A stretch of DNA of 47,546 bases from Bacteroidales bacterium (GTDB taxonomy: Bacteria; Bacteroidota; Bacteroidia; Bacteroidales; UBA10428), in assembly GCA_016931575.1 (NCBI GenBank), contig JAFGEO010000011.1, forward strand, positions 1 through 47,546, given 5' to 3'. The notes below the pieces were generated by a model, which was not told where the DNA came from, made no database searches, and worked only from the letters and a program-made list of their open reading frames with translations. Both the position numbers and the translations under genes were made by a program. Position 1 is the first letter of the stretch, and each line of letters opens with the position of its first letter. Shown here in pieces: positions 5,199 to 47,155 of the stretch.

Positions 5199-5227
5199 AG
5201 TACAGGAGTTTGGTTAAAATTTTAAAG

Positions 5228-5256
5228 ATCAGTACATGACTGACTTTTGTACTGAT
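5228..5256 (-). terminator. Weak hairpin after the hybrid sensor gene
   Basis: An 8-bp perfect inverted repeat (5228-5235 and 5249-5256, 13-base loop) lies 43 bases downstream of the sensor stop codon. On the minus strand it is followed by an AU-rich stretch (CTTTAAAATTTT) rather than a clean U-run, so termination is plausible but not certain. Confidence 0.4.
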
Positions 5257-5298
5257 GCATAGATTGATAAATTGGTTGCTTTGCAGAGAATATTTTGA

Positions 5299-8200
5299 TT
5301 AACCAAGATACTTTTCAATAGTTTCCAGCAGGTCCATTTTTCGCAGGGGTTTAACAAGGAAATCGTTGCAGCCCACATCCAGGCATTGCTTACGGTGGTT
5401 GGTCTGGTCGTAAGCAGTTTGCACAATGACCGGGATATCCTTGTTGCTTTCCCGTATCAGCTTCATGGCATTGATGCCCCCCATCCGTGGCATCTTCAGA
5501 TCCAGCAATACCAGGTCGAATTCCAGACCATCATCCACTTTTTCAAGGAGTTCCACCCCATCCTCACAGTGGATGATGCTCACCCCGGTGTCCCTCAATA
5601 TCGCTTCAATGAGCAGGAAGTTCGACTCCTCATCTTCGGCAACCAGGATCTTTTTTCCGCTCCATGAGAAACGCTTTTCTACAGATTGTCCGGATTTTTG
5701 TTTATCAAGATTTGCTGTTTTGAAAGGAAGGGTAAAATAGAATGTAGACCCTGAGTCATCGCGGCTTTCAGCCCAAATTTTCCCCCCGAGCAATTCAGCA
5801 ATGACTTTTGCAAAAGCCAGTCCCAGCCCTGAACCCCTTTCCACTCCCGGCTTATCATCCTCAGCAACGGTGAAGAAGCGGTCAAAGATCTTATTGATGT
5901 GTTCAGGTTTGATACCGATTCCGGTATCTTTCACAAAGAAGGTAATCCACTTTTCCTCAAGTTTGTCAATACCAACCGTAATATACCCTTGTTCAGTGTA
6001 CTTAATAGAATTCTCAAGTAATTTGGAGAATATCTGGTAGAGTTTTTTCCCATCGGTGTACATGACTATCGGCTGATCCGGGAGGTTAGCCAGGATGTTA
6101 AGCTCAGGCTTCTCACGTGAAGCTTTGGCCCGGGTAGTGGAAATCAGGTCCCGAAGCAGGTCGTTCAAATTGCATGCACCGTATTCAGGTTGCAGTTGCC
6201 CGGTCTGCATGCGGCTAAAATCGACAATATCCTGGATGAGCCGCAGCATACTTTTCCCGCTTTCGTTGATGATCCTAAGGTAATATTCACGGCTGAACCG
6301 GTCATCGATCTTTTCAGTAAGCAGGTTGACAAACCCAATGATAGCATTCATTGGGGTGCGGATCTCATGGCTCAGATTTTCAAGGAAGGCGGTTTTTAAC
6401 CGGTCGCTTTCCTCGGCAATTTCCTTAGCAGCCACGAGGTCCTGTGTCCGTTCTTCGACCAGCTCTTCGAGGCGTGTACGGTGCAATTCGAGCTCCTTGT
6501 TTTGTTTGACGATCTGGTCCCTCTGGATGGTAGCCAGATCACGTTGTTTAATAATTCTTTCGTTTTGATCAGCTATTTCACGGCTTCTTTTCTCCAGCTC
6601 CCGGGTACGCTCGGATACCTGTCTGGCAAGCCTGGAATTCTGCTGGCTCATATGCCTGACACGAATCCTGTATACAGAAAAGATCACAAGTGCCACAAGG
6701 GCAACCATCAACCCTATGAACCAAACGGTTTTGTAGAATGGTGGATGAACAATGACTTTTATGCTTGCCCCTGTATGATTCCAAACCCCATCATGATTGG
6801 ACCCTTTCACATGGAAGACATAGGTCCCCGGCGCCAGGTTGGAATAGGTGGCAAAATGCTGGTCTCCGACCTTTTGCCAGGTATCCTCGAAACCTTCAAG
6901 CCTGTACATGTATTGGTTCCGGTGCCCCTGCGTATAGTTCAGCGAAGCGAAGTCCAGGGTAAAGATATTTTGACCCGGGTAAAGATGGATCTCCCTGGCA
7001 GTCACGATATTTTCTTTAATAGATGCTTTCCCTTTTTGCTTCATCCCCTGTCGCCCCATAATTTTTAAATTGGTGAACACCAGGGGGGGCGAGAACCGGC
7101 AGGACTGGATCTCATCGGGTTTGAAATTCGTGACCCCTTCATTCCCTCCAAAGAAAAGTACCCCTTCCAGGTTGCAGAAACAGGCATTGGGTCTGAAGGA
7201 ATTTCCCTGCAGCCCATCCTCCTTTGTATAATTGGTAAAAAGATTCTTTTCGAAATTAAATTTGGATATGCCCTGGTTGGTACTGATCCACAGGTTCCCT
7301 TCCGGATCTTCGCTGATAGAAGCAATGCTATTCCCTGCCAGTCCTTCGGCCACTGTAAAATAAATGAACCTGCCTTTTTTGTCCCACAGATTAAGCCCGT
7401 TATTAGTGCCTATCCAGATCCTGTTCTTTGAATCTTCAAACAAGGTGGTAACCCACTTATCAGAAAGGGTATTCAGATCATTAAGAGAAGAAGTATAAAA
7501 TTCCACTTTCTCCCTATCCCTGTCATAAACATACAAACCATTGTAGGTAGCGATAAGAAGTCTCCCTTTCGAATCATTGAGTAGATACAGGGATTCCTGT
7601 TGAGGGAAGCCCTCCTCAAAGCCTTTCAGTTTAACCTGGGAAATAGTCCGGCTTTTAAGGTTCATAACATGAACACCTCCCTCAGAAGCAATCCAGAGGG
7701 TATCTCCTTCACGAAGAAGGTCCCAAACCTGATTTGCCTGATTTTCACCGGAAGCATTATGGGCAAAATGAACGAAGGTTTGGCTTTGCTTTTGGTAGCA
7801 GCTGATACCCCCGTCATAATAGCCAATCCAGATATTCCCGTCACGGTCTTCTTCCAGGCAAAGTGGTTTATTCCCCAGGATCGATCTGCTGCTCCCCTGC
7901 CGGGCCACAAAATGCTGATAATCCCCCCGTCCCTTTTTATCCAGAATAAGGCCCGAACCATCCGTCGCATACCAAAGGTTATGCTCCTCATCCTCCAGGA
8001 TGGCTGTGATCTCGTTTTGCAGGTCGGGACCCAGAATTTCTGTCATGCTGTGGAACATTTTCCGATGGGTGTTCACATAGTCAATGGGCGCATTATAATG
8101 TCCGATCCAGAAATTTCCGGCGCGGTCCTCAAAGAAAATTCGTACCGCATCAGAATTGATACCCAGCCGGTTTGGTTTCGAATACCTGAATGCAGAGAAG

Positions 8201-9129
8201 CCTGTGCCCGAAGGCTCCTTGTAAAGCAGTCCACCTCCGTCGGTAGCTACCCACAGCAGGCCCTGCTGATCGGTCTTGATATCCCAGATATAATCGCTTT
8301 CAATTTTATACTCCCCGGTTTGCGATGAGGAAAACCAGGTACATTTACCTTCTTCAGGAAAATAGCGCAGCAGCCCCTCCCCGTTGGTGCCGATCCAGAT
8401 CGTTCCCTCAGCATCTTCACCGATGCTCCGGATATCACCATCCGAGAAATCCTTTTTTCCGGCTTTCAGATCCGGTTTTTTCAGCACCATATCATCAAGA
8501 GAAAGGCAGAGTACCCCATGGCCGATAGTTGCAATCCAGAGCATATTAGATCGGCTGAGAAATATACTTCGCAGATCATACGCCAACAGATCTTCACCTC
8601 CTTTTAACAGGTCCTCAAGCTTGGTAAAATGAGCAGAGTTCGCTTCTTTCCGGACCACTCCTCCCTCCCTGGTTGCAATCCAGAGGTTGCCGTCCTTATC
8701 TTCAGCAATCTTCCGGATGTTGTTGTCAGGCAGCCCTGTCTCTTCGGTATACCGGGTGAAATTATCCTTCTTAACGTTGTAGAGGTTAAGCCCGTTCTGA
8801 GTTCCCACCCAAAGATTCCCCTTGCTGTCTGAAAAGATCGTGCTTACCGCATTACTGCAAATGCTGTATGGATCATTCCGCCGGAAGGTGTATGCGTTGA
8901 ACTGAATTCCATCATACCGATACAGCCCATCGGTGGCACCCATCCAGATAAACCCGAAATTATCCTGTTCAAAAGCTTCAACATGATTTGGTGAAATAGT
9001 TCTGGCAGCTTCAATATTCTCAAAAATATAATCAGAAACCGGAAAAGTACCGTTGGATCCGTAAAGCCGGATATATCCCTGAAATAGCAGACCAAGCGAT
9101 AAAGCAACTATCCGTATGACCCTCATCAT
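5299..9129 (-). CDS. Hybrid two-component sensor: two-component propeller, Y_Y_Y, HisKA, HATPase, receiver
   Basis: The start is set at ATG 9129, where a signal peptide or anchor begins (MMRVIRIVALSLGLLFQG); the longer frame would use GTG at 9204. The protein is about 1276 residues. The periplasmic part holds some 12-14 propeller repeats of the type GNLWxGTxxGLNLY, then a Y_Y_Y domain (about 740-785, with LAPGTYVFHVKGSN) and one transmembrane helix (about 799-820). A coiled coil leads to HisKA (LSHEIRTPMN, His near 920), HATPase (LLENSIKY, DTGIGI, GSGLGLA) and a receiver domain (VAEDEESN, LLDLKMP). The chain stops at the receiver: the AraC-type DNA-binding domain usual in this class is missing. 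Such sensors commonly detect glycans. Output is therefore probably through an unlinked partner. Confidence 0.92.
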   Translation of the reverse strand: MMRVIRIVALSLGLLFQGYIRLYGSNGTFPVSDYIFENIEAARTISPNHVEAFEQDNFGFIWMGATDGLYRYDGIQFNAYTFRRNDPYSICSNAVSTIFSDSKGNLWVGTQNGLNLYNVKKDNFTRYTEETGLPDNNIRKIAEDKDGNLWIATREGGVVRKEANSAHFTKLEDLLKGGEDLLAYDLRSIFLSRSNMLWIATIGHGVLCLSLDDMVLKKPDLKAGKKDFSDGDIRSIGEDAEGTIWIGTNGEGLLRYFPEEGKCTWFSSSQTGEYKIESDYIWDIKTDQQGLLWVATDGGGLLYKEPSGTGFSAFRYSKPNRLGINSDAVRIFFEDRAGNFWIGHYNAPIDYVNTHRKMFHSMTEILGPDLQNEITAILEDEEHNLWYATDGSGLILDKKGRGDYQHFVARQGSSRSILGNKPLCLEEDRDGNIWIGYYDGGISCYQKQSQTFVHFAHNASGENQANQVWDLLREGDTLWIASEGGVHVMNLKSRTISQVKLKGFEEGFPQQESLYLLNDSKGRLLIATYNGLYVYDRDREKVEFYTSSLNDLNTLSDKWVTTLFEDSKNRIWIGTNNGLNLWDKKGRFIYFTVAEGLAGNSIASISEDPEGNLWISTNQGISKFNFEKNLFTNYTKEDGLQGNSFRPNACFCNLEGVLFFGGNEGVTNFKPDEIQSCRFSPPLVFTNLKIMGRQGMKQKGKASIKENIVTAREIHLYPGQNIFTLDFASLNYTQGHRNQYMYRLEGFEDTWQKVGDQHFATYSNLAPGTYVFHVKGSNHDGVWNHTGASIKVIVHPPFYKTVWFIGLMVALVALVIFSVYRIRVRHMSQQNSRLARQVSERTRELEKRSREIADQNERIIKQRDLATIQRDQIVKQNKELELHRTRLEELVEERTQDLVAAKEIAEESDRLKTAFLENLSHEIRTPMNAIIGFVNLLTEKIDDRFSREYYLRIINESGKSMLRLIQDIVDFSRMQTGQLQPEYGACNLNDLLRDLISTTRAKASREKPELNILANLPDQPIVMYTDGKKLYQIFSKLLENSIKYTEQGYITVGIDKLEEKWITFFVKDTGIGIKPEHINKIFDRFFTVAEDDKPGVERGSGLGLAFAKVIAELLGGKIWAESRDDSGSTFYFTLPFKTANLDKQKSGQSVEKRFSWSGKKILVAEDEESNFLLIEAILRDTGVSIIHCEDGVELLEKVDDGLEFDLVLLDLKMPRMGGINAMKLIRESNKDIPVIVQTAYDQTNHRKQCLDVGCNDFLVKPLRKMDLLETIEKYLG

Positions 9130-9570
9130 AGACAATAACAATATGTGGTACTTGGAGGAAGACAACTCTTCATGTAAAATCACATCTAAAATTTTACGGA
9201 ACACTGGTCAGGTATTCCCCGTGGTCATATAGCTAGCTCCAAGTTAGCAAACTTTATTCAAAACTGAGGAATTTTTATTTTGAAATATTTTCCGGGACAG
9301 CAACGCAACCTTTTCTTAAAAATAACATCTATAGGATTAAAGAGATGTTTTAAAGGAATGTATCCAACCGGATATACACTCTGGTAGAGGTCATTTAAGG
9401 CACTTTAGGTGAGTTTTTTCGGCAAACTTTCCATAACAGGACATCTTAGGGTAGGATGTCCTGTTATTTTTTTTTTCGCCTGATCTCATATCCTGGTACA
9501 AAACCTTCAAAATCCTTACCAACAAATCACTGGCATCATTCTTGTGTTTTAAAAAGTAAAAGATGCAGCG
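9130..9570. other. Divergent intergenic region with an orphan plus-strand terminator
   Basis: This 441-base gap lies between the start of the hybrid sensor (minus) and the STAS gene (plus). It is AT-rich and holds no gene-sized frame. A strong terminator at 9433-9476 reads on the plus strand although no plus-strand gene precedes it in the gap. A TATTTTG sequence at 9276-9282 could serve as a -7 element for a short transcript ending there. Confidence 0.5.
9433..9476 (+). terminator. Strong intrinsic terminator without an upstream gene
   Basis: A perfect 13-bp stem (9433-9445 with 9455-9467, 9-base loop) runs into ten T residues (9467-9476). No plus-strand coding sequence precedes it in the gap. 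It therefore ends either a small RNA or a leader transcript of the STAS gene that begins 95 bases later. Confidence 0.85.
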
Positions 9571-9924
9571 ATGAAAAGGGAGATAAAAATATCAGATGAG
9601 CGTCCCACCGGCAGGGAAGTGATAGTTTCCTTCCGGAACCATGGCACCCTGGGCTTGTTAAAACATGGCTTCATCCAGTTTACGCTCAAGGAAGTGATCC
9701 AGGAAAAAGGATCCCGATTAATCATGGACATTACAGGAGTGAAACTTATTGACAGTGATAGCATTGATATCCTCAATCTGCTTTCCCGTCTTGGCCGCAA
9801 ATATGATTCCGTCATCTGGTTAAGGGGTGTTGAGCCTGAAGTCCTGGAGCTGCTTGCCCTGGCAAAAAAATATGCAGTATTTGACATTCAGCATGTCGAA
9901 CCCGTGAATGAAGAAGTTGCCTGA
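9571..9924 (+). CDS. STAS-domain protein, anti-sigma-factor-antagonist type
   Basis: This 117-residue protein is essentially a single STAS domain. The core motif LIMDITGVKLIDSDSIDIL (residues 50-68) matches the strand-turn-helix in which SpoIIAA-type antagonists carry the phosphorylated serine. Ser62 follows Asp61 at the expected place, with Ser64 as an alternative. The tail (VEPEVLELLALAKKYAVFDI) fits the last helix and strand. Members normally shuttle between phosphorylated and free forms through a partner kinase and a PP2C phosphatase. No kinase is next to it, but a SpoIIE-type phosphatase is encoded at 37032-39269. The gene is monocistronic, with terminators on both sides. Confidence 0.72.
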   Translation: MKREIKISDERPTGREVIVSFRNHGTLGLLKHGFIQFTLKEVIQEKGSRLIMDITGVKLIDSDSIDILNLLSRLGRKYDSVIWLRGVEPEVLELLALAKKYAVFDIQHVEPVNEEVA

Positions 9925-9951
9925 CTCTCCTCTTTATTCTACTATAAACTC

Positions 9952-9987
9952 AAATTCCCGCTGATACGTTCATGCGGGAATTTTTTT
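9952..9987 (+). terminator. Intrinsic terminator of the STAS gene
   Basis: A 10-bp stem (9952-9961 with 9974-9983, 12-base loop) is followed by a T-run reaching 9987. It overlaps the last codons of tcdA on the opposite strand. Confidence 0.8.
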
Positions 9988-10701
9988 AATCAGATCCCTT
10001 ATGACCTCTGCAGCACAGAAACAGCCAAACACTGCCGGCATATAGGATATGGTACCAACAACCGAGCGTTTATTCCCGCTGCCGTCGGTCACCATAATAC
10101 TTTCCGGGTCTACTTTTTCAGGAGAGAAGACCACCTTCAGGCCCTCATAGACCTTGCGCTTATGCAAGGCTTTACGTATCATGTAGCCAAACTTGCATCC
10201 AAAGGAATCCTCCATCCTGCTGATCCTTACCTGTGACGGATCCATCTTTCCTCCCGACCCGAAAGAGCTGATGATGCAAAGCTCCCTTTTCACGGCTTCT
10301 TCAAGCAGGTCGACTTTCGGGGTGAGCGTATCAATGGCATCGATAACATAGGCATACTTTTCAGCCAGTACCAGAGGAATATTTTCACTGCTGAGGAATT
10401 CATCAATAATTTTGACTTCGCATTCCGGGTTAATATCCCTGATTCGCCCGGCCACCAGCTCTGTTTTTTGTCTGCCCTCCGTAGAAGTCAGGGCAATTAG
10501 CTGCCGGTTACGGTTTGAAGGCTGCACCACATCACAATCGACAAGGGTGAATTTTCCAATACCGGCCCGGGTAAGCTGCTCGGCAGCATAGGCACCGACT
10601 CCACCCAGGCCTGCAATCAGGACATGCGCCTTCCGCAGACGCTCCAGGCTCTCTCCACCCAGCAGCAATTCGGTTCGGCAAAGCCAGTTTGATTCATTCA
10701 T
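9970..10701 (-). CDS. tcdA: tRNA threonylcarbamoyladenosine dehydratase (TcdA/CsdL, ThiF-like)
   Basis: A 243-residue E1-like enzyme that uses ATP to cyclise t6A37 of ANN-decoding tRNAs to ct6A. The N-terminal half carries the nucleotide-binding motif GLGGVGAYAAE (about 31-41) and the adenylating signature VDCDVVQPSNRNRQ (about 53-66) with its conserved Asp and Arg. The family-typical segment SSFGSGGKMDPSQVRI follows, and DAIDTLTPK is the usual Asp loop. It differs from ThiF and MoeB in lacking zinc-binding CxxC pairs. The start overlaps the end of the tatD-like gene by four bases, so translation is probably coupled within the operon gltX, tatD-like, tcdA. Confidence 0.9.
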   Translation of the reverse strand: MNESNWLCRTELLLGGESLERLRKAHVLIAGLGGVGAYAAEQLTRAGIGKFTLVDCDVVQPSNRNRQLIALTSTEGRQKTELVAGRIRDINPECEVKIIDEFLSSENIPLVLAEKYAYVIDAIDTLTPKVDLLEEAVKRELCIISSFGSGGKMDPSQVRISRMEDSFGCKFGYMIRKALHKRKVYEGLKVVFSPEKVDPESIMVTDGSGNKRSVVGTISYMPAVFGCFCAAEVIRDLIKKIPA

Positions 10702-11357
10702 GGTAAACGCTGAAAACAGGTTAAAAAGTTACTTTCAATCAATTCCTCCATGGCAGCAAGGGATAAACCCCGGAGCAGAGCAGCTTTTTCATAAACCCCG
10801 GAGATAGAAAATCCCGCATCATCGGTCTCCAGGAATATTTTATCTTCCGGCAGGCTGCTGAAGGCTTTGAAGGCCTTGCTGTCCTCCCTGAACAACATGG
10901 ACCCGAACGAGAGGTAAAAACCCTGTCTGATAAGCTGTTGCGCCATTTCTGCTGAAGCGTTGAACCAGTGGATGATCCAGGGAGTACCGGTTGGCATTTC
11001 CCGGTGAACCTCAAATACTTCCTGATAGGCCCGTACGCAATGGATTATCAGGGGTTTCCCCAGCTCCTTTGCCAGTTTAACCTGCTCAAGGAAAGCCCTA
11101 TGTTGAAGCGGAAAAGGAACCTTGCAGGCCTTATCCAGTCCTGTTTCCCCAATAGCAAGCACCGATTCGTGCTTTGCCATATTAGTAACAGATTCCAGAT
11201 CCTTCTGCAGGCTAGTTTCACGGATTTGCCAGGGGTGCAGTCCGGCAGAATACAATCCAGGCTTCGCAAGTTCCTGCCCCTGGTTATGAAAGAGATTCCG
11301 TAAAACCCGGTCGGCTTCACCCGGATCGGCGGCATGTCGGTGAATATCGATTTTCAT
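10698..11357 (-). CDS. TatD-family metal-dependent hydrolase
   Basis: A 219-residue TIM-barrel hydrolase, somewhat shorter than the 255-260 residues of classic TatD. Metal ligands are readable: His6 and His8 in the opening strand (DIHRH), Glu71 (GETGLD), His106 (IIHCVRA), His130 (WIIHWFNAS) and Asp179 (LETDD). TatD enzymes are Mg-dependent 3'-5' nucleases or deoxyribonucleases acting in the cytoplasm on damaged nucleic acid. The gene lies 36 bases downstream of gltX and overlaps tcdA by four bases, so it is the middle gene of a tRNA-related operon. The exact substrate of this short subgroup is unknown. Confidence 0.85.
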   Translation of the reverse strand: MKIDIHRHAADPGEADRVLRNLFHNQGQELAKPGLYSAGLHPWQIRETSLQKDLESVTNMAKHESVLAIGETGLDKACKVPFPLQHRAFLEQVKLAKELGKPLIIHCVRAYQEVFEVHREMPTGTPWIIHWFNASAEMAQQLIRQGFYLSFGSMLFREDSKAFKAFSSLPEDKIFLETDDAGFSISGVYEKAALLRGLSLAAMEELIESNFLTCFQRLP

Positions 11358-11393
11358 GCTTGCTGAATTAGGGGATTTACAAAAGACAGGGCC

Positions 11394-37031: not shown

Positions 37032-39269
37032 CTATTGCAAAAGTTGTCCGATCTTTTTGATGAAGGTCTTCAAATCTATTGGCTTGGCAATATAGTCATC
37101 TGCGCCAACCTGGAAGGCCTCCCGGTCATCCTCATCCAGGTGCATGGCCGTTTGGATGATCACCGGGATATCCTTTCTGTGCTGTTTGATAATTTTTGTG
37201 GCGTCGTATCCATTCATCCCGGGCATATTGATATCCATCAGGATCAGATCGACTTCGTTGTTCTTTACAAATTCGACAGCTTCAAGTCCATCCTTAACCC
37301 TGACCAGATTAACCCTGGTTTGTTTCAGCACTGCAGCCATCAGGAAGTAATTGACATCCGTATCCTCAGCAATCAAAATGGTCTTATCACTCCAGTCAAT
37401 ATTCTCGGCTGATTTAGCCGGCGAAACTTCGGCCCCTAAGCGTATTCCAATGATCAGGATATCATCCAGCTGAGTGTGTTCCCCGCGCCAGTCATCAAAA
37501 GCCTTGTCGAGAAGCCTGGCCTGGTCCTTCATGCTATGAGTATGAATGCTCAGCAGCGTATCCTTGAACCTCCTCGACATGAATTTAAGCCCCTTGTCAC
37601 CTCCAAACTGGTCCACGTAGCCGTCCGAGAAGAGATAAATGCGGTCGTCGGTTTCCCAGTTGATACTGATCCTGCTGAAAGAGATATCCTTCTTCTGGTG
37701 GTAGCTCACGGGCATCTTATCAGCCTTATACTCAATGATCTCTTTATTTCTGATGATATAAAGCGGATTGTTGGCGCCGGCATATTGCAATTTTCTATTC
37801 TTAAGATCGATCAGGCAAAGCGCGATATCCATTCCATCCTTAGGTTCCGTAATATCTCCCGTCTGGTGCAGGGAGGTAATGATCATTTCCCGGAGCTGAT
37901 TCAGGATATCATCCGCATTCAGGTTGCTGATATGCTGGTTGATTACGATCTTATTGACAATCTCATTCAGGTAGGCTACTCCCAGCATGCTCATAAAAGC
38001 CCCCGGAACACCATGTCCTGTACAATCGGCCACTGCCAGAATGAGGGTACCCCCCTTTTGAGCGGTCCAGTAAAAATCGCCGCTAACAATATCTTTTGGC
38101 TTATAGAGTATAAAGTAATCATTAAAGGCGGCAGAGAAGAATTCCTCCTGTGGGAGTACAGCTTTCTGGATCCGTTGGGCATACAGGATGCTGTCGGTAA
38201 TTCTCTTCTTCTGCTTTTCGGCCAGTTCATGCTGCTCCCCGATCTTATTCTTCTGGCGCTCGATCTCGTTATTTTGTTCCATCAGGAGCCGGTTTGCCTT
38301 TTTCTTGGCACGTGATTGCATCAGAACCAGAAACACAATCAGGATGAAGAATCCCAGCAGAACGATTAAGGCGATGATCTGGGTCCGGCGGGTCTCTTCT
38401 CTGGCTTTCAGTTGTTGGTTCTCTGCTTCTTTCCTGGCCTTTTCCTTTTCATTCAATTCATTCTGCTGGTTGAGCAACAGGTTTTGATACTGCATCTCAC
38501 GATTCTGTTCAAGGACTTCGCCCAGGGTATCGCGCATGCTGCTGACAGCTTCCTGTGAGCTCCGGGCCTGCAATTCTGCCTGATTCTTTTCACTGACCAG
38601 AGCCTCCCTTTCCTGTTTTGCAATCTGTTTTTGAATCGCAGTATAGTACGAATTATATTCTGTGAATTTCTGTGAATTGCCAAGCGCATCATAGTTATCA
38701 GCCAGAATTTTACAGCTCTCGGCGAGCAGGGAGTTCATTTCGTTACTTCGCTTTGTCTGCTCTATCCCTGCAGCTTTCTGGTTAGCCAGTTCAGCCCGGC
38801 TGTTGGACTCTGCATAATATTTCAGCGATTGGAATGACCGGGCTATGTTAAGCAAATCCGAGATTTCCCCGGTCAGGTCTTTTCGCTTTCTATGAATGGC
38901 GAGGCTTTTCTCATAGTATTTAATGGCCGATTGGTAGTCCTGTTGTTCATCCGAGATTACCCCAATGTTGAAGTACAGGGTTTTCAGGGCATTTTCATTT
39001 CCCATAGCCTCATTGACCTCTGAAGCCAGGATGTAGTATTTTATCGCCTCCGCTTTTACATCAATGCTGTAGTACGTGTTTGCCAGCAAATTATAATATC
39101 GGGCCAGTTCGGTCTTATTACCCTGAGCCTCATACTGTCCGATAAGATTTTTGTATTCCTCGATCCTGGACTGAATGTTATCGGTATAACCGGATCCAAG
39201 GCATAAACCACTAATGAATATCGCTGATATAAAGACACTTAATATTTTCCTACTATTCAGAAAGCCCAT
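37032..39269 (-). CDS. TPR-SpoIIE phosphatase-receiver protein (SiaA-like)
   Basis: The start is set at ATG 39269, where a signal/anchor begins (MGFLNSRKILSVFISAIFISGLCL). The protein is about 745 residues. Periplasmic TPRs (about 30-200; YYNLLANTYYS, LYFNIGVISDEQQDYQSAIKYYEKS) are followed by a coiled coil, a transmembrane helix (IIALIVLLGFFILIVFLVLM) and a second coiled coil. Next comes a SpoIIE/PP2C phosphatase (KDIVSGDFYWTAQKGGTLILAVADCTGHGVPGAFMSML), with metal-binding Asp and Gly. A receiver (LIAEDTDVNYFLM, LILMDINMPGMNGYDA) ends the chain. Receivers normally sit N-terminal to SpoIIE, so the order is unusual. The likely target is the SiaC-like protein encoded next door; the STAS protein at 9571 is another candidate. 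Confidence 0.85.
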   Translation of the reverse strand: MGFLNSRKILSVFISAIFISGLCLGSGYTDNIQSRIEEYKNLIGQYEAQGNKTELARYYNLLANTYYSIDVKAEAIKYYILASEVNEAMGNENALKTLYFNIGVISDEQQDYQSAIKYYEKSLAIHRKRKDLTGEISDLLNIARSFQSLKYYAESNSRAELANQKAAGIEQTKRSNEMNSLLAESCKILADNYDALGNSQKFTEYNSYYTAIQKQIAKQEREALVSEKNQAELQARSSQEAVSSMRDTLGEVLEQNREMQYQNLLLNQQNELNEKEKARKEAENQQLKAREETRRTQIIALIVLLGFFILIVFLVLMQSRAKKKANRLLMEQNNEIERQKNKIGEQHELAEKQKKRITDSILYAQRIQKAVLPQEEFFSAAFNDYFILYKPKDIVSGDFYWTAQKGGTLILAVADCTGHGVPGAFMSMLGVAYLNEIVNKIVINQHISNLNADDILNQLREMIITSLHQTGDITEPKDGMDIALCLIDLKNRKLQYAGANNPLYIIRNKEIIEYKADKMPVSYHQKKDISFSRISINWETDDRIYLFSDGYVDQFGGDKGLKFMSRRFKDTLLSIHTHSMKDQARLLDKAFDDWRGEHTQLDDILIIGIRLGAEVSPAKSAENIDWSDKTILIAEDTDVNYFLMAAVLKQTRVNLVRVKDGLEAVEFVKNNEVDLILMDINMPGMNGYDATKIIKQHRKDIPVIIQTAMHLDEDDREAFQVGADDYIAKPIDLKTFIKKIGQLLQ

Positions 39270-39602
39270 ATTGTTTTTTAACTTTAAGTTACAAAGCCTG
39301 CCGGAGAATATAGGCAGGCCGTTAGTGACATGCATCACTACTATCTAATGATTAAGATCACTGATTTTGGAGAGGACGGGGCATTCAGGAAAAGAAAAAC
39401 CCGGAAAGTGAGTACACACGGAAGATGATCACCGGCATTTCCTTAAAGATGGTAGTTTTACCAGGGCCATCCCGTTGGTACAGATAAAGCTTCCGGGCAG
39501 CTTCAGCAGTATAGCCTTTCCCCCGGAATCCGGGATTGCCTGTTTGCTCTCTGTTGCAGGACAGGAGAAGACAATCTGCAAACCTTAGCCATTAAGCTGA
39601 AA
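39270..39602. other. Gap downstream of the GG-leader peptide gene
   Basis: This 333-base stretch lies between the peptide stop and the start of the SpoIIE gene. Short frames of up to 60 codons exist on the minus strand but start without ATG and shift frame, so no gene can be called. No terminator, promoter or repeat was found with confidence. Confidence 0.4.
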
Positions 39603-39752
39603 TCAAACCATTAAGTCCCAAAGGTTCAGAATGATCACTTCCCCCGGCGACTTGGGTTTGTCTGATTTACCTAATCCTCCACGAATACACAACATCTCAT
39701 CCGGTTGTAATTCTTTTGGCTCTTTTTTTAATTCTTTCTTGAACATATTCAT
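39603..39752 (-). CDS. GG-leader small peptide, candidate signal or bacteriocin-like precursor
   Basis: A 49-residue peptide starting at ATG 39752 (a second ATG at 39746). The first 24 residues are a leader rich in Lys and Glu that ends LQPDEMLCIRGG, with the double glycine at 25-26. The spacing and the EM..IRGG pattern match double-glycine leaders of Bacteroidota natural-product precursors. The core after the double glycine would be 23 residues (LGKSDKPKSPGEVIILNLWDLMV), acidic to neutral with a hydrophobic end and no cysteine. It starts 9 bases after the LytTR regulator stop and follows the kinase and regulator on the same strand. No C39 peptidase transporter was seen. Shorter than most annotation cut-offs. 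Confidence 0.6.
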   Translation of the reverse strand: MNMFKKELKKEPKELQPDEMLCIRGGLGKSDKPKSPGEVIILNLWDLMV

Positions 39753-39761
39753 ACTATCTGG

Positions 39762-40520
39762 TTATGATACAAACTGTTGCATCGTATTTATAAAAATATC
39801 CTTTTTACTTCGGGCAACGGGAATGCGGCTCTCATCGCTCATCTCCACATACCCACCATCGGTCCTCACATACATCACCACATGGTTCAGGTTAATAAGG
39901 TGTGAGTTATGGATCCTGAAAAATGTGTCGGGACAGAGCATCTGCTGATACTCATTCAGACATTTCGAAACCATGATTACACGGCCCGTATCCAGAAAAA
40001 TCCTGGCATAACTGCGATCAGATTCCAGTCTGACAATAGATTCCACCGGTAAATATTCGTATCCCTTGCTGTTGGATACCACCAGTTTCCTGGGTGCATG
40101 GTGTGCAAGATTTTCAAGCAGGACATCATAGTCCATCCTCCCGGATCCTGTACGGTCTTGAATACGGTTCACCGCGTCCAGGAAATCTTTGATATCAATG
40201 GGTTTCAGCAGATAATCCAATGCGCTGTGCTTAATCGCACTGATAGCGTACTTATTATGCGCAGTGATAAAAACCACCTCGAAATTCCGGGTTTTCAGCA
40301 TCCTGAGGAGATCGAAACCTGTTCCGTCAGGCATTTCCACATCCAGAAAAACTATATCCGGTTGCAGCCCAATTACAGCCCTGGCTCCCTCTTCGACATT
40401 TTTCGCAATCCCGGCAATGGAAAATTGCGGACAATATGAATGGATCAGGAACTTCAGAGATTCGATAGCTCCTGCATCGTCATCGACAATTAGCACGCGT
40501 ATGTTTTGTATCTGTTTCAT
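39762..40520 (-). CDS. LytTR-family response regulator
   Basis: A 252-residue regulator. The receiver (about 1-125) holds DDD at 13-15, the phospho-acceptor Asp60 (DIVFLDVEMPDG), a T in VVFITAH and the Lys in YLLKPID. The LytTR DNA-binding domain fills the C-terminal half (KLVVSNSKGYEYLPVESIVRLESDRSY, FFRIHNSHLINLNHV, VARSKKD). LytTR regulators control peptide signalling, bacteriocin and virulence genes in many species. The stop of the kinase and the start of this gene meet without a gap (40521/40520), and the small peptide gene follows 9 bases downstream. Confidence 0.93.
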   Translation of the reverse strand: MKQIQNIRVLIVDDDAGAIESLKFLIHSYCPQFSIAGIAKNVEEGARAVIGLQPDIVFLDVEMPDGTGFDLLRMLKTRNFEVVFITAHNKYAISAIKHSALDYLLKPIDIKDFLDAVNRIQDRTGSGRMDYDVLLENLAHHAPRKLVVSNSKGYEYLPVESIVRLESDRSYARIFLDTGRVIMVSKCLNEYQQMLCPDTFFRIHNSHLINLNHVVMYVRTDGGYVEMSDESRIPVARSKKDIFINTMQQFVS

Positions 40521-42482
40521 CTAATTCAATACGGGTAAGTTAAATTCGACTTTAGTTCCATTGCATTCCTTGTTCTCATCGAGCACATCGCTGTACATGA
40601 CACTGAATTTCCTCCCATAGATCCGGTTCAGGAGTTTAATCCGGTTCTCTGTAATCGCAGTGCCCTTTGACTTATGCATACTTACACAGTTTTTCTTTAG
40701 TTCCCCGGCTTTCTTCCTGCCGATCCCATTGTCGCAAATGCTGCAATGAATATTCCGGTTCCGGTATTCCAGTCTGATTTCCACCTTTCCTTTCCCTTCC
40801 TTATTCTGCAGCCCGTGTATAATGGAATTCTCAACATAAGGCTGCAACAGGAAGGTAGGGATCCTGAACATCAGGGGATCAATTTCATCGTCCACAATGA
40901 TCTCATATTCCAGTCGCTTATCAAAGCGGATGGCCTCAAGCTCGAGGTACATCCGCAGTGCTTCCAGTTCATCATGCACCGTACTCAGCTTTGAACCGGC
41001 ATTATCCAGGGTACGTCGCAGGAAACCCGAAAACAGTTGAAGGTAATTGCCGGACGACCGGGTATCATTCCTGAGCAGGAAGGCATGAATTGAATTCAGG
41101 ATATTGAAAATGAAATGCGGGTTCATCTGCGACCGTAAATTTTCCTGCGATAACTCGGCGATCTTCTTTTGGGAACGAAGGAGGACCTGCTGGATTACCA
41201 GCAAGGTCAGCAGTAACAGGAGGAGGATGCCCGCCCACAGGTAGCGTATGTGGGTGCGGTTGCGTTGTATGATCTGGTCTTTCTCAACATTTTCAGATTT
41301 AGCCAGCGCAAAGAGGCCTTCAAGTTCATCCAGGCGCTCCAGGGCTTCATTGCCTTCCCAGCTTAACTTCAGCTTATTATAGTGCTGCAGATGCGCAAGG
41401 GCCTGTCTGAAGTCACCCCTGGCCGAGTCGGCTTTAAACAGGTAATCGTATAGCTGGAGTTGCAGTACGGGGTCTTCCAGTTCATTTGCCAGGGAAAGGC
41501 TTTTTGTCAGGTAGGAGGCAGCCTTATTATAGTTTTCTGCCTCCAGGTTCATATATCCGTAATGCATCAGGATATAGGCCTCGTCCGCGGCCATCTTATA
41601 CCTTTCGGCCAGTTGAAGCGCCCTTTGATAGCAGGTGTCAGAGGCCTTTAGCTGGTTAAGCTGGTAGTGGATGCTACCCAGGATCATCAGGGATTTGATC
41701 TGACCAGCATAATTTCCCACCTGCTCCCGCATACGATAAGAATTCAGGGCAGGTTCCAGAGCTTCTTCATATTTTTCTTCCTCGTTGAGAAGATTCCCCA
41801 GGTTGTAGTATAAAGTCCCAAGCATCCGGAAGTCCTTTATAGTTTCGGCCATAGCAACAGCCTTTTGCAGGTGAAGATGTGCCTTTTCATAGCTCCCGAC
41901 CTTTTGATAGAGGACAGAAATGCTGTTTTCCACTGCGATAGCCCCGTCGGTATACTTAGTTTTCTCAAACCATTCCCCGGCTTCCAGGAAATAGTTAATG
42001 GCCTCATCGATCTGACCGGTATTCATCTTGATGCTTGCCAGGTTGTGCAGGATTTTGGCAGCCTGAAGCTGATCGTTCTGTTTTCTGGCCAATACCAGGG
42101 CTTCATTGAAATTTCGCTCTGCAGCCGGATAGTCCCCCTGCGCCAAATAATCACCGCCGAGGACTGTCAAACTTTTGGCCATGCCCAGGGTATCCTTTTC
42201 AGCCTTGAACAAGCTAAAAGCCTGGTTGGCATAATCCCTGGATTTTGAAAGATCCAGATAAGCATATTCACGGGCGATCTTCAACATAATCCCGGCACGT
42301 ATCGGGGTTGAATCTTCCTGATTAAGCAGGACAAGCAGTGAATCCACCTCATCAGCAGCCTGAACGAAAACAGGGTTGAAAAAAAGCAAAAAGCACCCCA
42401 GCAGCAGAATGACAGGGTTTCTTTTGCTGGATAACAGGTCGGGTTTAACCGGGTATTTCTGCTTAGATGTGGTTTGGAACAT
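40521..42482 (-). CDS. LytS/YehU-type sensor histidine kinase with TPR domain
   Basis: A 653-residue kinase. After an N-terminal anchor (NPVILLLGCFLLFFNPVFVQ) come about eight TPR-like repeats (about 75-385; LGGDYLAQGDYPAAERNFNEAL, LYYNLGNLLNEEEKYEEALEPAL). A transmembrane helix near 412-433 (LWAGILLLLLLTLLVIQQVLL) leads to the cytoplasmic part. His_kinase signature is MNPHFIFNILNSI, and the HATPase motifs are YVENSIIHGL and CDNGIGRKKAG. The TPR part would be periplasmic, so it could bind a peptide or protein there. It belongs to the LytS/YehU class normally paired with LytTR regulators, and the next gene is exactly that. Ends at 40521 with no gap to the regulator. Confidence 0.9.
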   Translation of the reverse strand: MFQTTSKQKYPVKPDLLSSKRNPVILLLGCFLLFFNPVFVQAADEVDSLLVLLNQEDSTPIRAGIMLKIAREYAYLDLSKSRDYANQAFSLFKAEKDTLGMAKSLTVLGGDYLAQGDYPAAERNFNEALVLARKQNDQLQAAKILHNLASIKMNTGQIDEAINYFLEAGEWFEKTKYTDGAIAVENSISVLYQKVGSYEKAHLHLQKAVAMAETIKDFRMLGTLYYNLGNLLNEEEKYEEALEPALNSYRMREQVGNYAGQIKSLMILGSIHYQLNQLKASDTCYQRALQLAERYKMAADEAYILMHYGYMNLEAENYNKAASYLTKSLSLANELEDPVLQLQLYDYLFKADSARGDFRQALAHLQHYNKLKLSWEGNEALERLDELEGLFALAKSENVEKDQIIQRNRTHIRYLWAGILLLLLLTLLVIQQVLLRSQKKIAELSQENLRSQMNPHFIFNILNSIHAFLLRNDTRSSGNYLQLFSGFLRRTLDNAGSKLSTVHDELEALRMYLELEAIRFDKRLEYEIIVDDEIDPLMFRIPTFLLQPYVENSIIHGLQNKEGKGKVEIRLEYRNRNIHCSICDNGIGRKKAGELKKNCVSMHKSKGTAITENRIKLLNRIYGRKFSVMYSDVLDENKECNGTKVEFNLPVLN

Positions 42483-42513
42483 CCTAAAATTATTACCGGT
42501 TTTTCCCTAATGA

Positions 42514-42520
42514 CAATATA
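42514..42520 (-). promoter_or_regulatory. Possible -7 element of the kinase-regulator-peptide operon
   Basis: Reads TATATTG on the minus strand (TAnnTTG variant), about 32 bases upstream of the kinase ATG. No -33 box assigned. Confidence 0.35.
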
Positions 42521-42638
42521 CATACCAGAAACACGTAAGCCTCAGACAATTAATATGATAATTTTTTCAAAGTTTTCTCATTCTGTCCGCATTTGTTGTA
42601 CTGGATGTCCGGAACCGCACAGTCTGAAGGAAGGATAA

Positions 42639-42733: not shown

Positions 42734-44122
42734 TCAGAGATTCGGATTTGCATCCGTTTCGGCTTTCGGAAGTGGAATAATCAGGTCTTCTGAGTTCCAT
42801 TCCAGGTTACCGATACTTCTTTGCCAGCGCTTATAATCGTGCAGGCGGTGACCTTCGAAGATCAATTCGCGATATCTCTCAAAGCGGATATCATCGAGGG
42901 TAACAGAACCCACATCTACCAAACCTGCTCTCTCCCGAATCACGTTGATATCATCCACCGGACTGTTGGTTCCTACCTGGCTGGCGCCCTGATCGAGGAG
43001 TATCTGGTTTGCTTCGGCGCGGGTAAGGTACATCTCTGCCAGGCGTATGAAAGTAACATTGGTATTATATTCCAGCCATTTTGCGGAATAGATTCCCCTG
43101 GCACGCTGTCCGAACCCTTCATAGTACATAGTGTTCACCTCGCTGTGACTGGTAAGGCCATACTGGACTATGCCGCGGGCATCCTCTGCATCGTAGGTCG
43201 CGGCAAGGAATTCTTCGGTGATCACCATCTCTGATCGTCCATTGGCGTTTGTGCTGGCAAAGAAAGGAGTCATCCCATCATTATTTGCACCTTCATTATC
43301 CAGTTCTGACTGGGCCCATGTCATGATATCCTCGGTACTGTTCACCGATTGATTATAGGCATAGAACACATCGCCTACCAAGGCATACATTCCGGATTCG
43401 ATTACCGAATCGGCCATAGCGGCTGCCTGTTCAAAATTCCCGATCGTCAGGTAATAACGGCTCAGCATAGCCATTGCCGCATACCGGTTTGCAAAGAAGG
43501 TTTCATCGACCGGCAAAAGATCAGCAGCGGCTAACAAATCTGCTTCGACCTGAGTAAAAACTTCCCCAACCGTTGCCCTCGAAGGATAGGTAAGGTCATC
43601 TGCACTCATCACCCCATCCGTGGCCAGCGGAACCGCAGGTGAGTTCATGGCTCCGGTTCCATAGGGAAGCCCGAAAAAGCGTGTCAGATCAAAATGCAGG
43701 ATTCCTCTAAGGAACCGTGCATCGCCTTCCAACTGGCTACGGGTAACATCATCTTCAACGATATCCAGGTTCTCAAGGATCAGGTTACAGCCATTGATGG
43801 CGCGGTAGCTATAGCGCCAGGCATATTCCCCCCACATAAAGGTAGGTACCAATGACTTGTTTTGAAGATCTTCAAGTTCCTCATAAGTTCCTGTGAACCA
43901 AATCTCGCCTGTATCTGCCAGCATTTCAGCAAAATGGAACATGTAGCGCGTATAGTTCCTTCTGGCATAAGCATACGAACTGTTTCTGAGGCTTTTTAAT
44001 CCATCGGATGTACTCAAAGCTTCCTCAATATTCTGGGAATCAGTAGGTATCACATCCAGTTTTTCTGTGCAGGCACTTATCGTGCCAACAATGATAAGTA
44101 ATATGAATATATAGCGTTTCAT
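42734..44122 (-). CDS. SusD/RagB-family outer-membrane lipoprotein
   Basis: A 462-residue lipoprotein with Cys18 as lipidation site (LLIIVGTISAC). SusD proteins cover the SusC barrel and bind the glycan or peptide. RSQLEGDARFLRGILHFDLTRFFG and YTYLTRAEANQILLDQG-type sequence (LAEMYLTRAEANQIL) are diagnostic, as is the C-terminal ELIFEGHRLHDYKRWQRS. It ends DANPNL, slightly shorter than the usual NPNLxQNPGY. SusC lies 24 bases upstream on the same strand, so the pair is an operon. The substrate is not visible from the sequence. No glycoside hydrolase lies within the window next to it. Confidence 0.95.
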   Translation of the reverse strand: MKRYIFILLIIVGTISACTEKLDVIPTDSQNIEEALSTSDGLKSLRNSSYAYARRNYTRYMFHFAEMLADTGEIWFTGTYEELEDLQNKSLVPTFMWGEYAWRYSYRAINGCNLILENLDIVEDDVTRSQLEGDARFLRGILHFDLTRFFGLPYGTGAMNSPAVPLATDGVMSADDLTYPSRATVGEVFTQVEADLLAAADLLPVDETFFANRYAAMAMLSRYYLTIGNFEQAAAMADSVIESGMYALVGDVFYAYNQSVNSTEDIMTWAQSELDNEGANNDGMTPFFASTNANGRSEMVITEEFLAATYDAEDARGIVQYGLTSHSEVNTMYYEGFGQRARGIYSAKWLEYNTNVTFIRLAEMYLTRAEANQILLDQGASQVGTNSPVDDINVIRERAGLVDVGSVTLDDIRFERYRELIFEGHRLHDYKRWQRSIGNLEWNSEDLIIPLPKAETDANPNL

Positions 44123-44146: not shown

Positions 44147-47100
44147 TTATAATGTGACATTGATCCCGAATGTGAACCCCCTGGCCTGTGGTGTGGCATA
44201 ATATTCGACCCCCTGGGAAATGTTCAGCTGGGTTTGACTCTGTCTGGTTCCGGTTTTGGTTACCTCCGGATCCCAGCCTTCGAAGTCGGTTATTGTCCAA
44301 AGGTTCAACCCGGAAACATAAACCTTAATCCTTTCTACATAAAACTGCCTGCTTATTTTTGCTGGAAGGGTATAGGACAGCGAGACATCTTTTAACCTGA
44401 TATAACTCCCATCTTCAATCCAGCGCGAGGACATCCTTCCTCCGTTATCTTCTCCCAGGCGGGCCTGAGGTACATCTGTGATATCACCAGGCTCCTGCCA
44501 TCTTTCCATCTGATCGATGGTTTGGTTATCCAATCCACCCGCATTATTGGAGGTATAAATACCCTGGAAACGATAAATCTCGTTGCCCTGGACAAACTGG
44601 AAGAAGACATTCAAGGCAACCCCCTTATAGGAGAATGAGTTAATAAACCCACCATAATAATCAGGATGTGGACTGCCCACATTGCGGAATTCTGCTTCTG
44701 CGTAGTCATTCGTTGTTTCACCGGTTTCGGTATAGTACAGAGCATCTCCATTATCCGGATCCACACCGGCATATTCGGGCATATAGAAGAAACCTATAGG
44801 CTGACCCTCTTCAACACGGCTTTGATCAACCGTGATAGGCTCAATCAGTTGAGTCACTACGTTCTCATTGAAGGTGATATTAAAGCTTACATTCCAGATA
44901 AAGTTTCCAAAAACCGGAGTGGCATTCAGTACAAATTCAAAACCTTCATTCTCCATTTCCCCGACATTTTCCAGGATGCTGATGTATCCGTTGCTCATGG
45001 GTATTGCTCTGTTCAACAGCATATCACTGGTTTTCTTAAGGTAGTAATCAAATTCTCCCGAGATTCGGTTCTTGAGAAATCCGAAATCCATTCCAACATC
45101 GAGTTGAGCCGTTTTCTCCCATCGCAGGTCGGAACGTCCGATCTGTGAGGCGTAGAAACCTGTCTCCGTGGTATAATGCCATGCATCCACCAGGTTCATA
45201 TAGCTATAATCAGCAATGCTGGCGTTTCCGGTCATTCCATAGGATGCCTTTGGTTTCAGGAAGAAAATCCAGGGTAGCCTCTCCATAAAGTCTTCTTCAG
45301 AAACAACCCAGCCACCGCTGAATGAATAGAAATTACCAAAACGTGAATCCTCACCAAAACGGCTGGATCCATCCATTCGGTAGCTGCCGGAAATCAGGTA
45401 GCGATTTGCCAGCTTGTAGTTTGCAGTGGCAAAATATGAAAGGAATGTCGTTTGGGTTTTCTGTGAGGTAAAGAAGGAGTTTTCAGAAGCTCCGGCCATA
45501 TCTTCAAAGGCATCACTTGGATAGGTTTTAGCCTGAATACTTCCTATTGAAAAATCTTCCTGCTGAAATGACATTCCCGCAATGACGTTCAAAGAATGCA
45601 CTTTCCCGAAGTCCTTATTAAGCGTAAGATAATTATCGAACTGAAGACTATTATTAGCTACCGAACGCCAGGTTCCGTTACCAGCAGGCTGTCCGTCATC
45701 AGTTTTAGGGCTTTGCCTTTCTTCCTCCCGCTGATGAAAATTATCGACACCGACCAAAGATGTAAGTTTTAGCACCTCCGGGATAATGTTCAGGTTGGCC
45801 TGAAAGCTCCCCATTGTCCTGGAGGTGATCACCTGACTTTTGTTATAGCGTTCGGCAAGCAAACTGTTAAAATAGATCGCATCCGGATTGGGTTCGCCAT
45901 CCTCAAGATAAGCAGGAGTGATTGGAGCCTGGGCAATTAACTGCATCGGGGTAGCAAAAGCATTGTCGTCAGCTACACGATCAAGAGTTGTCTGCGCATA
46001 GTTAACCTTTGCAGAAACATCGAAAAACCTGTTTACCTTATGATCCAGGTTGATTCGACCACTGGCTCGCTTGAGATTATTCTTGATCAGCAAACCCTCC
46101 TGGTCAGAATAAGAAAGACCGGCATAATACGCACTGTTTTCGTTTCCTCCGCTAATATTCAGATAAGTTTCATGCGAGATTGCCTGATCCTTAAAAGCCA
46201 GAGCCTGCCAGTCAGTATCTGCCGTATCCCGTGGCCAGAAGAAATAATCGCGTATAGCCTGTTCACCATCTCCGGGGCCATAATATTCATCACCCCAATA
46301 ATCCACATTCTCAATTGCTTCGCCTAAGAGTTCGAGGTATTCTGCAGCGTTCAGCATTTCAATCTGATTGGTAGGCTGGCGGGTAGAATAAGAATAGCCC
46401 ACATCGATCCTGGATTTTTGACCTGCGCGTCCCGACTTGGTGGTAATGATCACCACTCCGTTTGCCCCCCTTGATCCGTAAATGGCGGAAGCGGAGGCAT
46501 CCTTCAATACCTGTATGGACTTAATGTCGTTAGGATCAAGCGTGATCAGCGGGTTCATAGGCTGGTTTGTGTTGATCCCGAAGTCCTGATTGGCAATAAT
46601 AATCCCGTCCACAACATAAAGGGGCTGATTAGAAGCCGTGATAGAGTTCGTACCACGTACCCTAATGTTAAAAGCTTCTCCGAGTTTTCCGGTAGTACTT
46701 GTCATAAGCACGCCTGAGGTTTTTCCCTGGAGAGCTGATTCGAATGTCGTGGTGGGTACCTGTTGCATGTCTTCGCCCGAAATAGAGCTTATGGAACCTG
46801 TCAGGTCCCTTTTACTTCTAGGCCCGTAACCGACTACTACGACCTCATCAAGGTCCATTGCGACAGGGCTCATGCTAATATTGATCTCTGTCTGATTCGT
46901 AATATCAACTTCCCGGGTTTCCATACCAACAAAGCTGAAAACAAGAGTATTAACTCCTGCAGGCACCTGAATGGAATAATTACCATTTGCATCGGTTATT
47001 ACCCCTGCGGAAGTTCCTTTAGCAAGAACTGTCACTCCCGGCAGTGCCCGGGAGTCATCTGCTGAGACCACAACGCCTGTGATGGTCTTCTGGCCATAGA

Positions 47101-47155
47101 TAAGGGCCATACTGACATACCCTAATGTCAATAGTAAAAAGATACTTTTTTTCAT
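44147..47155 (-). CDS. SusC/RagA-family TonB-dependent transporter
   Basis: A 1002-residue outer-membrane transporter. A signal peptide is followed by the carboxypeptidase-regulatory-like domain (TITGVVVSADDSRALPGVTVLAKGTSAG), then the TonB box region (LDEVVVVGYGPRSKRDLTGSIS), the plug (VPTTTFESALQGKTSGVLMTSTTG, IRVRGTNSITASNQPLYVVDGI, ASASAIYGSRGANGVVIITTKSG) and a beta-barrel ending YATPQARGFTFGINVTL. No STN domain precedes, so sigma signalling through it is unlikely. It forms a pair with the SusD gene 24 bases downstream. The upstream 391 bases to the window edge hold no recognised regulator. Confidence 0.97.
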   Translation of the reverse strand: MKKSIFLLLTLGYVSMALIYGQKTITGVVVSADDSRALPGVTVLAKGTSAGVITDANGNYSIQVPAGVNTLVFSFVGMETREVDITNQTEINISMSPVAMDLDEVVVVGYGPRSKRDLTGSISSISGEDMQQVPTTTFESALQGKTSGVLMTSTTGKLGEAFNIRVRGTNSITASNQPLYVVDGIIIANQDFGINTNQPMNPLITLDPNDIKSIQVLKDASASAIYGSRGANGVVIITTKSGRAGQKSRIDVGYSYSTRQPTNQIEMLNAAEYLELLGEAIENVDYWGDEYYGPGDGEQAIRDYFFWPRDTADTDWQALAFKDQAISHETYLNISGGNENSAYYAGLSYSDQEGLLIKNNLKRASGRINLDHKVNRFFDVSAKVNYAQTTLDRVADDNAFATPMQLIAQAPITPAYLEDGEPNPDAIYFNSLLAERYNKSQVITSRTMGSFQANLNIIPEVLKLTSLVGVDNFHQREEERQSPKTDDGQPAGNGTWRSVANNSLQFDNYLTLNKDFGKVHSLNVIAGMSFQQEDFSIGSIQAKTYPSDAFEDMAGASENSFFTSQKTQTTFLSYFATANYKLANRYLISGSYRMDGSSRFGEDSRFGNFYSFSGGWVVSEEDFMERLPWIFFLKPKASYGMTGNASIADYSYMNLVDAWHYTTETGFYASQIGRSDLRWEKTAQLDVGMDFGFLKNRISGEFDYYLKKTSDMLLNRAIPMSNGYISILENVGEMENEGFEFVLNATPVFGNFIWNVSFNITFNENVVTQLIEPITVDQSRVEEGQPIGFFYMPEYAGVDPDNGDALYYTETGETTNDYAEAEFRNVGSPHPDYYGGFINSFSYKGVALNVFFQFVQGNEIYRFQGIYTSNNAGGLDNQTIDQMERWQEPGDITDVPQARLGEDNGGRMSSRWIEDGSYIRLKDVSLSYTLPAKISRQFYVERIKVYVSGLNLWTITDFEGWDPEVTKTGTRQSQTQLNISQGVEYYATPQARGFTFGINVTL

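Follow-up and report, generated by a model that had tools for sequence, protein, structure and literature searches.

The DNA analysed here (the window: 47,546 nucleotides, contig C127 of the Bacteroidales assembly GCA_016931575.1, called G000 below; 4.8 Mb in 168 contigs, 98.3% complete, 4.35% contamination) carries on its minus strand a cluster of three genes, a probable operon, encoding a histidine kinase with a tetratricopeptide repeat (TPR) sensor, a response regulator with a LytTR DNA-binding domain, and a 49-residue peptide with a double-glycine (GG) leader. The 49-residue open reading frame (ORF) is very probably a gene, to judge from its recurrence beside such kinase/LytTR pairs. The best-supported reading of the unit, which we hold with about even confidence, is that the TPR kinase senses the peptide once it has been secreted. 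The elements concerned are the following:

40521..42482, minus strand: LytS/YehU-type histidine kinase, 653 aa (ORF list, Pfam, catalytic motifs, structure model)
39762..40520, minus strand: response regulator, receiver and LytTR DNA-binding domain, 252 aa (Pfam; receiver Asp motif)
39603..39752, minus strand: peptide precursor gene, 49 aa, ATG start, GG-type leader (ORF, chance controls, hidden Markov model (HMM), seven-sequence alignment)
39675..39752, minus strand: leader, residues 1-26, ending IRGG, with presumed cleavage after GG (best-conserved part of the alignment)
39606..39674, minus strand: predicted mature core after this presumed cleavage, residues 27-49, 23 aa, no Cys, 2 Ser/Thr, net charge 0

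The gap is 0 bases between kinase and LytTR gene and 9 bases between LytTR gene and peptide gene. An earlier note on this DNA had singled out the three genes as a candidate peptide-signalling circuit, and the coordinates, domains, gaps and GG-type leader that it gave agree with the ORF list and with Pfam. At E ≤ 1, the regulator matches Response_reg (5e-20) and LytTR (1.3e-12), and its receiver Asp motif is intact.

Recurrence of the peptide gene

Relatives of the LytTR gene were collected from three sources: 99 relatives, in which 59 genomes matched at E ≤ 1e-30 and 30 loci were used; the GTDB species collection (best 80 of 229 relatives); and 393 genomes of the order, 23 of which matched at E ≤ 1e-66. 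The 131 distinct loci obtained (match of at least 200 residues) are part of all matches. A regular expression (regex) describing a GG or AG leader, composed after the first matches had been inspected, was applied to ORFs of 30-110 aa directly before or after the LytTR gene. Such an ORF adjoined the gene in 7 of the 131 loci, that is, in seven of the ten most similar ones (47.7% identity and up) and in none of the 121 others; a few of these 121 could have been missed because some loci end close to the LytTR gene. On the antisense strand the regex was met in 0 of 131 loci; of 5000 dinucleotide shuffles of the 460-nt stretch that follows LytTR, 4 contained a match.

The peptide-bearing loci are those of the window, G005, G006 and G003 (genus g1), G010 (g3), and G012 and G014 (g5). 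The three-gene order described in the earlier note is kept inside g1, where the peptide gene follows LytTR by 9-40 nt, and not outside it: in G010, G012 and G014 the peptide gene sits between kinase and LytTR. The three loci of the top ten that had no leader ORF were G022 (L011), L053 and L060. On the LytTR tree the peptide-bearing rows form one group with weak support (45/27), while the kinase tree requires two changes to account for the distribution of the peptide. Because the gene recurs with the kinase/LytTR pair in seven genomes and three genera, we consider the frame conserved, a point on which the earlier note had made its proposal depend.

Profile searches gave a similar picture. An HMM built with the window ORF left out ranked it first among the non-training ORFs of 797 (E 4.7e-4), and the left-out peptide came first in this way for six of the seven members; the G003 peptide failed (E 1.9), ranking behind an unrelated ORF at 0.38. 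When the seven-peptide HMM was run on 23 family genomes, its own seven training members were returned at E ≤ 2.2e-15 and nothing else below 7.2e-5. A direct query of the 99 relatives with the window peptide yielded, besides itself, only weak matches (best 0.061), among which the syntenic G005 gene stood at 0.63. One extra match from a wider, stricter scan (L011, G022) sits inside the kinase region and was taken as chance.

The consensus of the seven peptides reads EKL...EM..IRGG, followed by the core; for G012 an inner Met start was taken (43 aa of a 54-aa frame), and in the G006 leader AG replaces GG. The predicted cores are 16-26 residues long, with 0-2 Ser/Thr and no Cys in six of seven (one Cys in one core). 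A P, a D/E and a run of I recur in them (VEEDIIII, PDDDILII, PEDIIIQP, PGEVIILN), a pattern that the G005 and G003 cores match less well. Pfam (E ≤ 1) gave nothing for the window peptide and NCBIfam (E ≤ 5) a single weak match, to the YdeI family (0.12), far under its cut-off. Five of the seven peptides were scanned against both libraries, models of lanthipeptides and other ribosomally synthesized and post-translationally modified peptides (RiPPs) included, and none passes any cut-off. Below the cut-offs, the G003 leader weakly matches ComC (0.23), BlpC (0.051) and type-A lantibiotic leaders, and that of G014 a class I lanthipeptide leader (0.099).

Kinase sensor, C39 exporters and other GG peptides

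Pfam (E ≤ 1) recognises TPR_12 (1.1e-27) and His_kinase PF06580 (3.9e-20) in the kinase, whose H-box is intact and whose N- and G-box motifs are present; the H-box reads DPHF in G012 and G014 as against NPHF. The TPR domain lies between two hydrophobic stretches, near residues 24 and 417, which bears out the earlier description of a TPR-bearing kinase with a predicted periplasmic TPR part. In a structure model of the kinase (34 kinases in the alignment; mean pLDDT 81.8, pTM 0.53), TPR helices run from 42 to 372 and are followed by a long helix holding the membrane stretch, and the periplasmic domain is predicted to be a TPR solenoid. The first 24 Foldseek matches were LGN/Pins-type chains, which are eukaryotic TPR scaffolds; lower down stood NprR, a quorum sensor (TMt 0.72), and peptide-bound RapJ (0.70). 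In a search with a sequence profile, the best matches were engineered TPR proteins and LGN; RapF was matched at 3.2e-23 along residues 33-368. Resemblance of this kind, in modelled fold and in profile, allows peptide binding without demonstrating it.

Identities within g1 were 30-36% for the sensor domain (30-40% with the truncated G003 protein), 56-62% for the kinase core and 64-77% for LytTR. For G013, G016 and G020, which have no peptide, they were 63-66, 74-78 and 67-70%, respectively; for G022 against these three, 42-45, 64-69 and 53-55%; and for G012 and G014, 53, 60 and 78%. The whole kinase diverges faster in g1, and the two groups cannot be told apart by their TPR-to-core ratio (1.55-1.79 in g1, 1.40-1.84 in g4).

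As the earlier note had said, no C39 transporter is in view; the three C39-domain matches of the genome sit on other contigs (C112, C102 and C150), and two of them are full-length exporters, so that unlinked exporters of the kind it had called for exist. The exporter on C112 (729 aa) has an HlyD-type partner and its own GG peptide 2.3 kb upstream, the leader end of which (LSYNDMLAVRGG) resembles that of the window peptide (LQPDEMLCIRGG). The exporter on C102 (726 aa) also has its own GG peptide near by, of 55 aa and with a hydrophobic core (L133:9250-9417, minus strand). The match on C150 lies in a shorter frame (554 aa from the first ATG). Across the 23 family genomes a C39 match was present in 18; the frame was at least 729 aa long in five of the seven peptide genomes (G000, G003, G005, G006, G012). 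Five g4 genomes have a peptide-less locus, and two of them (G018, G022) have a C39 match.

Applied to the 393 genomes of the order, the leader HMM gave 32 matches (E ≤ 0.1) in 29 genomes, including the window and G005. Of the 30 remaining matches, the top 20 (E ≤ 0.0482) were inspected with larger flanks, and a TPR protein was found within 1 kb of the GG peptide in 16 of these 20 loci, the TPR protein also carrying a CHAT domain in 12. Eight of the 20 had supplied the proteins of the TPR model (those eight being Pfam-confirmed), and eight of the other 12 were positive. Random points fell within 1 kb of a TPR gene in 1988 of 13185 cases over all control stretches (kinase loci included), in 789 of 4754 in the window, and never in two sets of stretches from the same genome (0 of 6917, 0 of 3300). 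Some of the GG-peptide/TPR clusters, examined by eye and by regex, also have a sigma-factor-like gene and a C39 exporter. Outside the order, 395 genomes over the phylum yielded nine leader matches in eight genomes (E ≤ 0.05, window excluded), none of the nine with a TPR neighbour in 1.5-kb flanks.

Because most of the GG peptides inspected in the order lie near TPR proteins, we tentatively propose, as a generalization that is somewhat doubtful at present, a Bacteroidales signalling class in which GG-leader peptides would be ligands of extracytoplasmic TPR receptors with interchangeable outputs. These outputs would be the LytS kinase/LytTR pair (window), a HisKA kinase (L210), a SpoIIE phosphatase (L215) and, above all, TPR-CHAT proteins, the last often accompanied by sigma-factor-like genes and C39 exporters.

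Several neighbourhoods may be recorded here. The C112 cluster (L132, G000:C112:28000-44000; 1946-2419, plus; 2409-5243, minus; 5415-5561, plus; 7867-11393, plus) contains a sigma-factor-like gene, a TPR-CHAT protein (CHAT 9.7e-60), a 48-aa GG-leader peptide, a C39 exporter and its HlyD partner. In the window, the next same-strand gene past the peptide, 264 bases on, encodes a TPR-SpoIIE-receiver protein (37032-39338, minus); this neighbour is not kept beside the G005 or G003 peptide. At L215, another GG peptide likewise adjoins a TPR-SpoIIE protein.

Promoter elements and upstream genes

The region upstream of the kinase contains the following features:

42512..42527, minus strand: candidate sigma-54-like -24/-12 element, TGGTATGTATATTGTC (shuffle p 0.08 alone; similar element in eight other regions)
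42584..42621, minus strand: tandem palindrome-like sites TGTnC-n5-CGnACA, 22 bp apart, candidate enhancer sites (position weight matrix, PWM)
42734..44122, minus strand: SusD-type lipoprotein gene, directly upstream of the kinase (PF14322 1.6e-21, PF07980 5.1e-20)
44147..47155, minus strand: SusC-type TonB-dependent receptor gene (Plug 3.5e-21, TonB_dep_Rec barrel 4.2e-16)

Seven other upstream regions, not including those of the window and G006, served to build the PWM. In the 47.5-kb window it scores highest at 42584-42621 (20.5 bits, as against 11.3-17.5 in five shuffles), some 100 bp ahead of the start of the kinase gene, and at the G006 locus its best match (19.7) likewise precedes the kinase; the score alone is not specific, because another G000 contig (L134) has a higher match (22.2). 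A candidate sigma-54-like element lies 93-114 bp downstream of the palindromes in nine of nine upstream regions examined (in G022, at the second-best match). Scored against the generally known sigma-54 consensus, the elements are weak singly (shuffle p 0-0.10). G013, which has 78 bp between the genes and no PWM site there, was excluded from the nine. The simplest reading of this conserved layout is that the kinase promoter would be under sigma-54 control by an enhancer-binding protein. Autoregulation by LytTR through the tandem palindromes was also considered and was dropped, given the sigma-54-like spacing in all nine regions and the similar palindromes beside an NtrC-family regulator and an ABC/TolC-type operon.

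The palindrome pattern has 14 strand matches in the same genome (up to three mismatches, two spacings, about 11 places), and the reversed pattern has none. No clear regulon emerged from these operator-like sites: not one is situated directly at a C39 exporter, and that on contig C150 is inside a reading frame. One of them adjoins the NtrC-family sigma-54 regulator. At this locus (L251, G000:C152:20000-32000), the regulator and its likely kinase (2712-5427, minus) are divergent from the ABC/TolC-type operon (5789-7911, plus), and between the two lie tandem palindromes like those of the window, followed after 93 bp by a sigma-54-like element. Two small proteins that look secreted and resemble each other in their W-containing C-terminal ends are encoded near operator-like palindromes at L252:6601-7008 (plus) and L253:5496-5849 (minus).

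SusC/SusD-type genes stand directly upstream of the kinase in ten orthologous loci, sometimes with a further small gene between: six with the peptide (window, G005, G006, G010, G012, G014) and four without (G013, G016, G020, G022). SusD was identified by Pfam in the window, G005, G010, G012, G020 and G022, and SusC by Pfam in the window and G012, the rest being assigned by eye; the SusD frame of G016 appears broken, and the G003 and G018 contigs end too soon to show the genes upstream of the kinase. The SusD type is PF14322/PF07980 in the window, G005 and G020, and PF12771/PF12741 in G010, G012 and G022.

Readings of the unit

Secretion of the peptide and its sensing by the kinase are favoured because the gene recurs, the cores are small and poor in Cys and in Ser/Thr, the genome has two C39 exporters, the sensor resembles known TPR proteins, most of the GG peptides inspected in the order lie near TPR proteins, and the G003 leader weakly matches ComC and BlpC. 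The 49-mer would be a precursor, and an unlinked C39 exporter (of the peptidase-containing ABC transporter, or PCAT, type) would cut its leader after GG and release a core of about 23 residues. This core would enter the periplasm, either directly or back across the outer membrane, and would bind the groove of the TPR solenoid. As expected from their families, the LytS-type kinase would then phosphorylate the LytTR regulator, which would switch target genes.

In Firmicutes, LytTR regulators are known as parts of peptide pheromone circuits. Like ComCDE/Blp of streptococci, the unit unites a GG-leader peptide, a sensor kinase and a LytTR regulator in one cluster, and the core is short and of unmodified look. 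The differences are that ComD/BlpH sensors are of a polytopic membrane type, whereas the window kinase has a predicted periplasmic TPR sensor and two hydrophobic stretches; that the window peptide lacks a linked C39 exporter and belongs to a Gram-negative host; and that its promoter elements look sigma-54-like rather than like LytTR sites. NprR and Rap, of the RRNPP receptors, are TPR solenoids that bind signal peptides, and the predicted solenoid of the kinase resembles theirs (RapF profile 33-368; TMt about 0.7); unlike the kinase, they are cytoplasmic and are not histidine kinases, and eukaryotic LGN outscores them as a match to the window kinase.

FimS of Porphyromonas gingivalis has, according to the available part of PMC11053733, a periplasmic TPR sensor between two transmembrane helices, with an unknown ligand for which a polypeptide has been proposed. 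The window kinase is predicted to have the same layout and matches the NCBIfam FimS model (5.4e-17), but reaches only 61.3 bits against a cut-off of 600 for the FimS equivalog NF053520. FimS is an unlikely receptor of a streptococcal peptide that represses fimA in P. gingivalis, because this repression is independent of FimS/R in what is accessible of PMC5431200. A Bacteroidales RiPP survey (PMC10352776, in part) reports TPR and histidine kinase/response regulator genes near GG-leader precursors and suggests a signalling role; radical S-adenosylmethionine enzymes are present in eight of nine of its clusters and a C39 exporter in seven of nine, whereas neither was recognised beside the window operon. 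The TPR-CHAT/GG-peptide clusters of Bacteroidales likewise combine a small ORF, which has a similar GG leader, with a TPR protein no more than 1 kb away; instead of a kinase/LytTR pair they have a CHAT domain as output, often accompanied by sigma-factor-like and C39 genes. PMC8895600, which surveys two-component quorum sensing, makes mention of Bacteroidetes, and TPR has no hit in the part available. In the literature searched, which left out most subscription journals, we found no Bacteroidota operon described in which a peptide gene accompanies a TPR kinase and a LytTR regulator.

The candidate circuit of the earlier note is partly supported, by the recurrence of the gene, its GG leader, the TPR kinase and the exporters, and several points weigh against it. 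Neither a LytTR site nor LytTR autoregulation was found in the upstream regions examined: the conserved promoter elements look like those of a sigma-54 promoter with enhancer. TPR is a generic fold, and generic scaffolds score above peptide sensors; nor does the fast divergence of the g1 sensor single out ligand binding, because the kinase core diverges likewise. In two peptide genomes the C39 match lies in a shorter frame: that of G014 is in a 403-aa frame, and in G010 (98% complete), which has no C39 exporter, the match is confined to a protein of 289 aa. The peptide is also missing from five related LytTR loci of genus g4; given these loci, and SusC/SusD genes lying upstream regardless of the peptide, the kinase cannot depend on the peptide everywhere. 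The direct proximity of SusC/SusD also keeps a nutrient-sensing role in play. As to the G010 protein (L254:2926-3795, plus), it has an N-terminal hydrophobic stretch, a C39 match at 7e-15, no exporter part and no NCBIfam match at 1e-4.

A nutrient-sensing role is the most serious alternative, if a rather unlikely one: the pair would be the two-component system of a SusC/SusD uptake locus, its TPR part reading imported oligomers or the state of SusCD, and the peptide would be an accessory or modulator in some genera only. Such a role would fit the ten loci with SusC/SusD upstream, with or without peptide, and the peptide-less g4 loci; the SusD type, however, changes while kinase and LytTR stay, and the GG leader and its recurrence are left unexplained. 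It is less probable still that the peptide is the output of the operon, a bacteriocin-like or RiPP product regulated by the kinase/LytTR pair. GG leaders of Bacteroidales are indeed known from RiPP precursors (PMC10352776, in part), and the G014 leader has its weak lanthipeptide match, but no modification enzyme, immunity gene or exporter was recognised by eye in the neighbourhood ORF lists (not all neighbours were scanned), and the cores offer few Ser/Thr and, in six of seven, no Cys. Very improbable is a small protein acting uncleaved inside the cell, for example on the kinase or LytTR, with a GG end that is no cleavage site: the lack of an exporter in G010 and the AG of G006 would suit it, but the leader end is the best-conserved part, and long frames with a C39 match occur in five of the seven peptide genomes.

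The peptide gene is tiny and easily missed, and none of the family libraries searched recognises the window peptide; overlooked GG-leader small proteins are indicated next to TPR proteins across the order. FimS, the signal of which is unknown in what is available of PMC11053733, shares its general design with the window kinase. With a peptide gene recurring in the TPR-kinase/LytTR cluster, a synthetic peptide of some 23 residues would put the ligand of such kinases within reach of a test, and these Gram-negative bacteria may use a peptide signalling circuit like that of Gram-positive ones.

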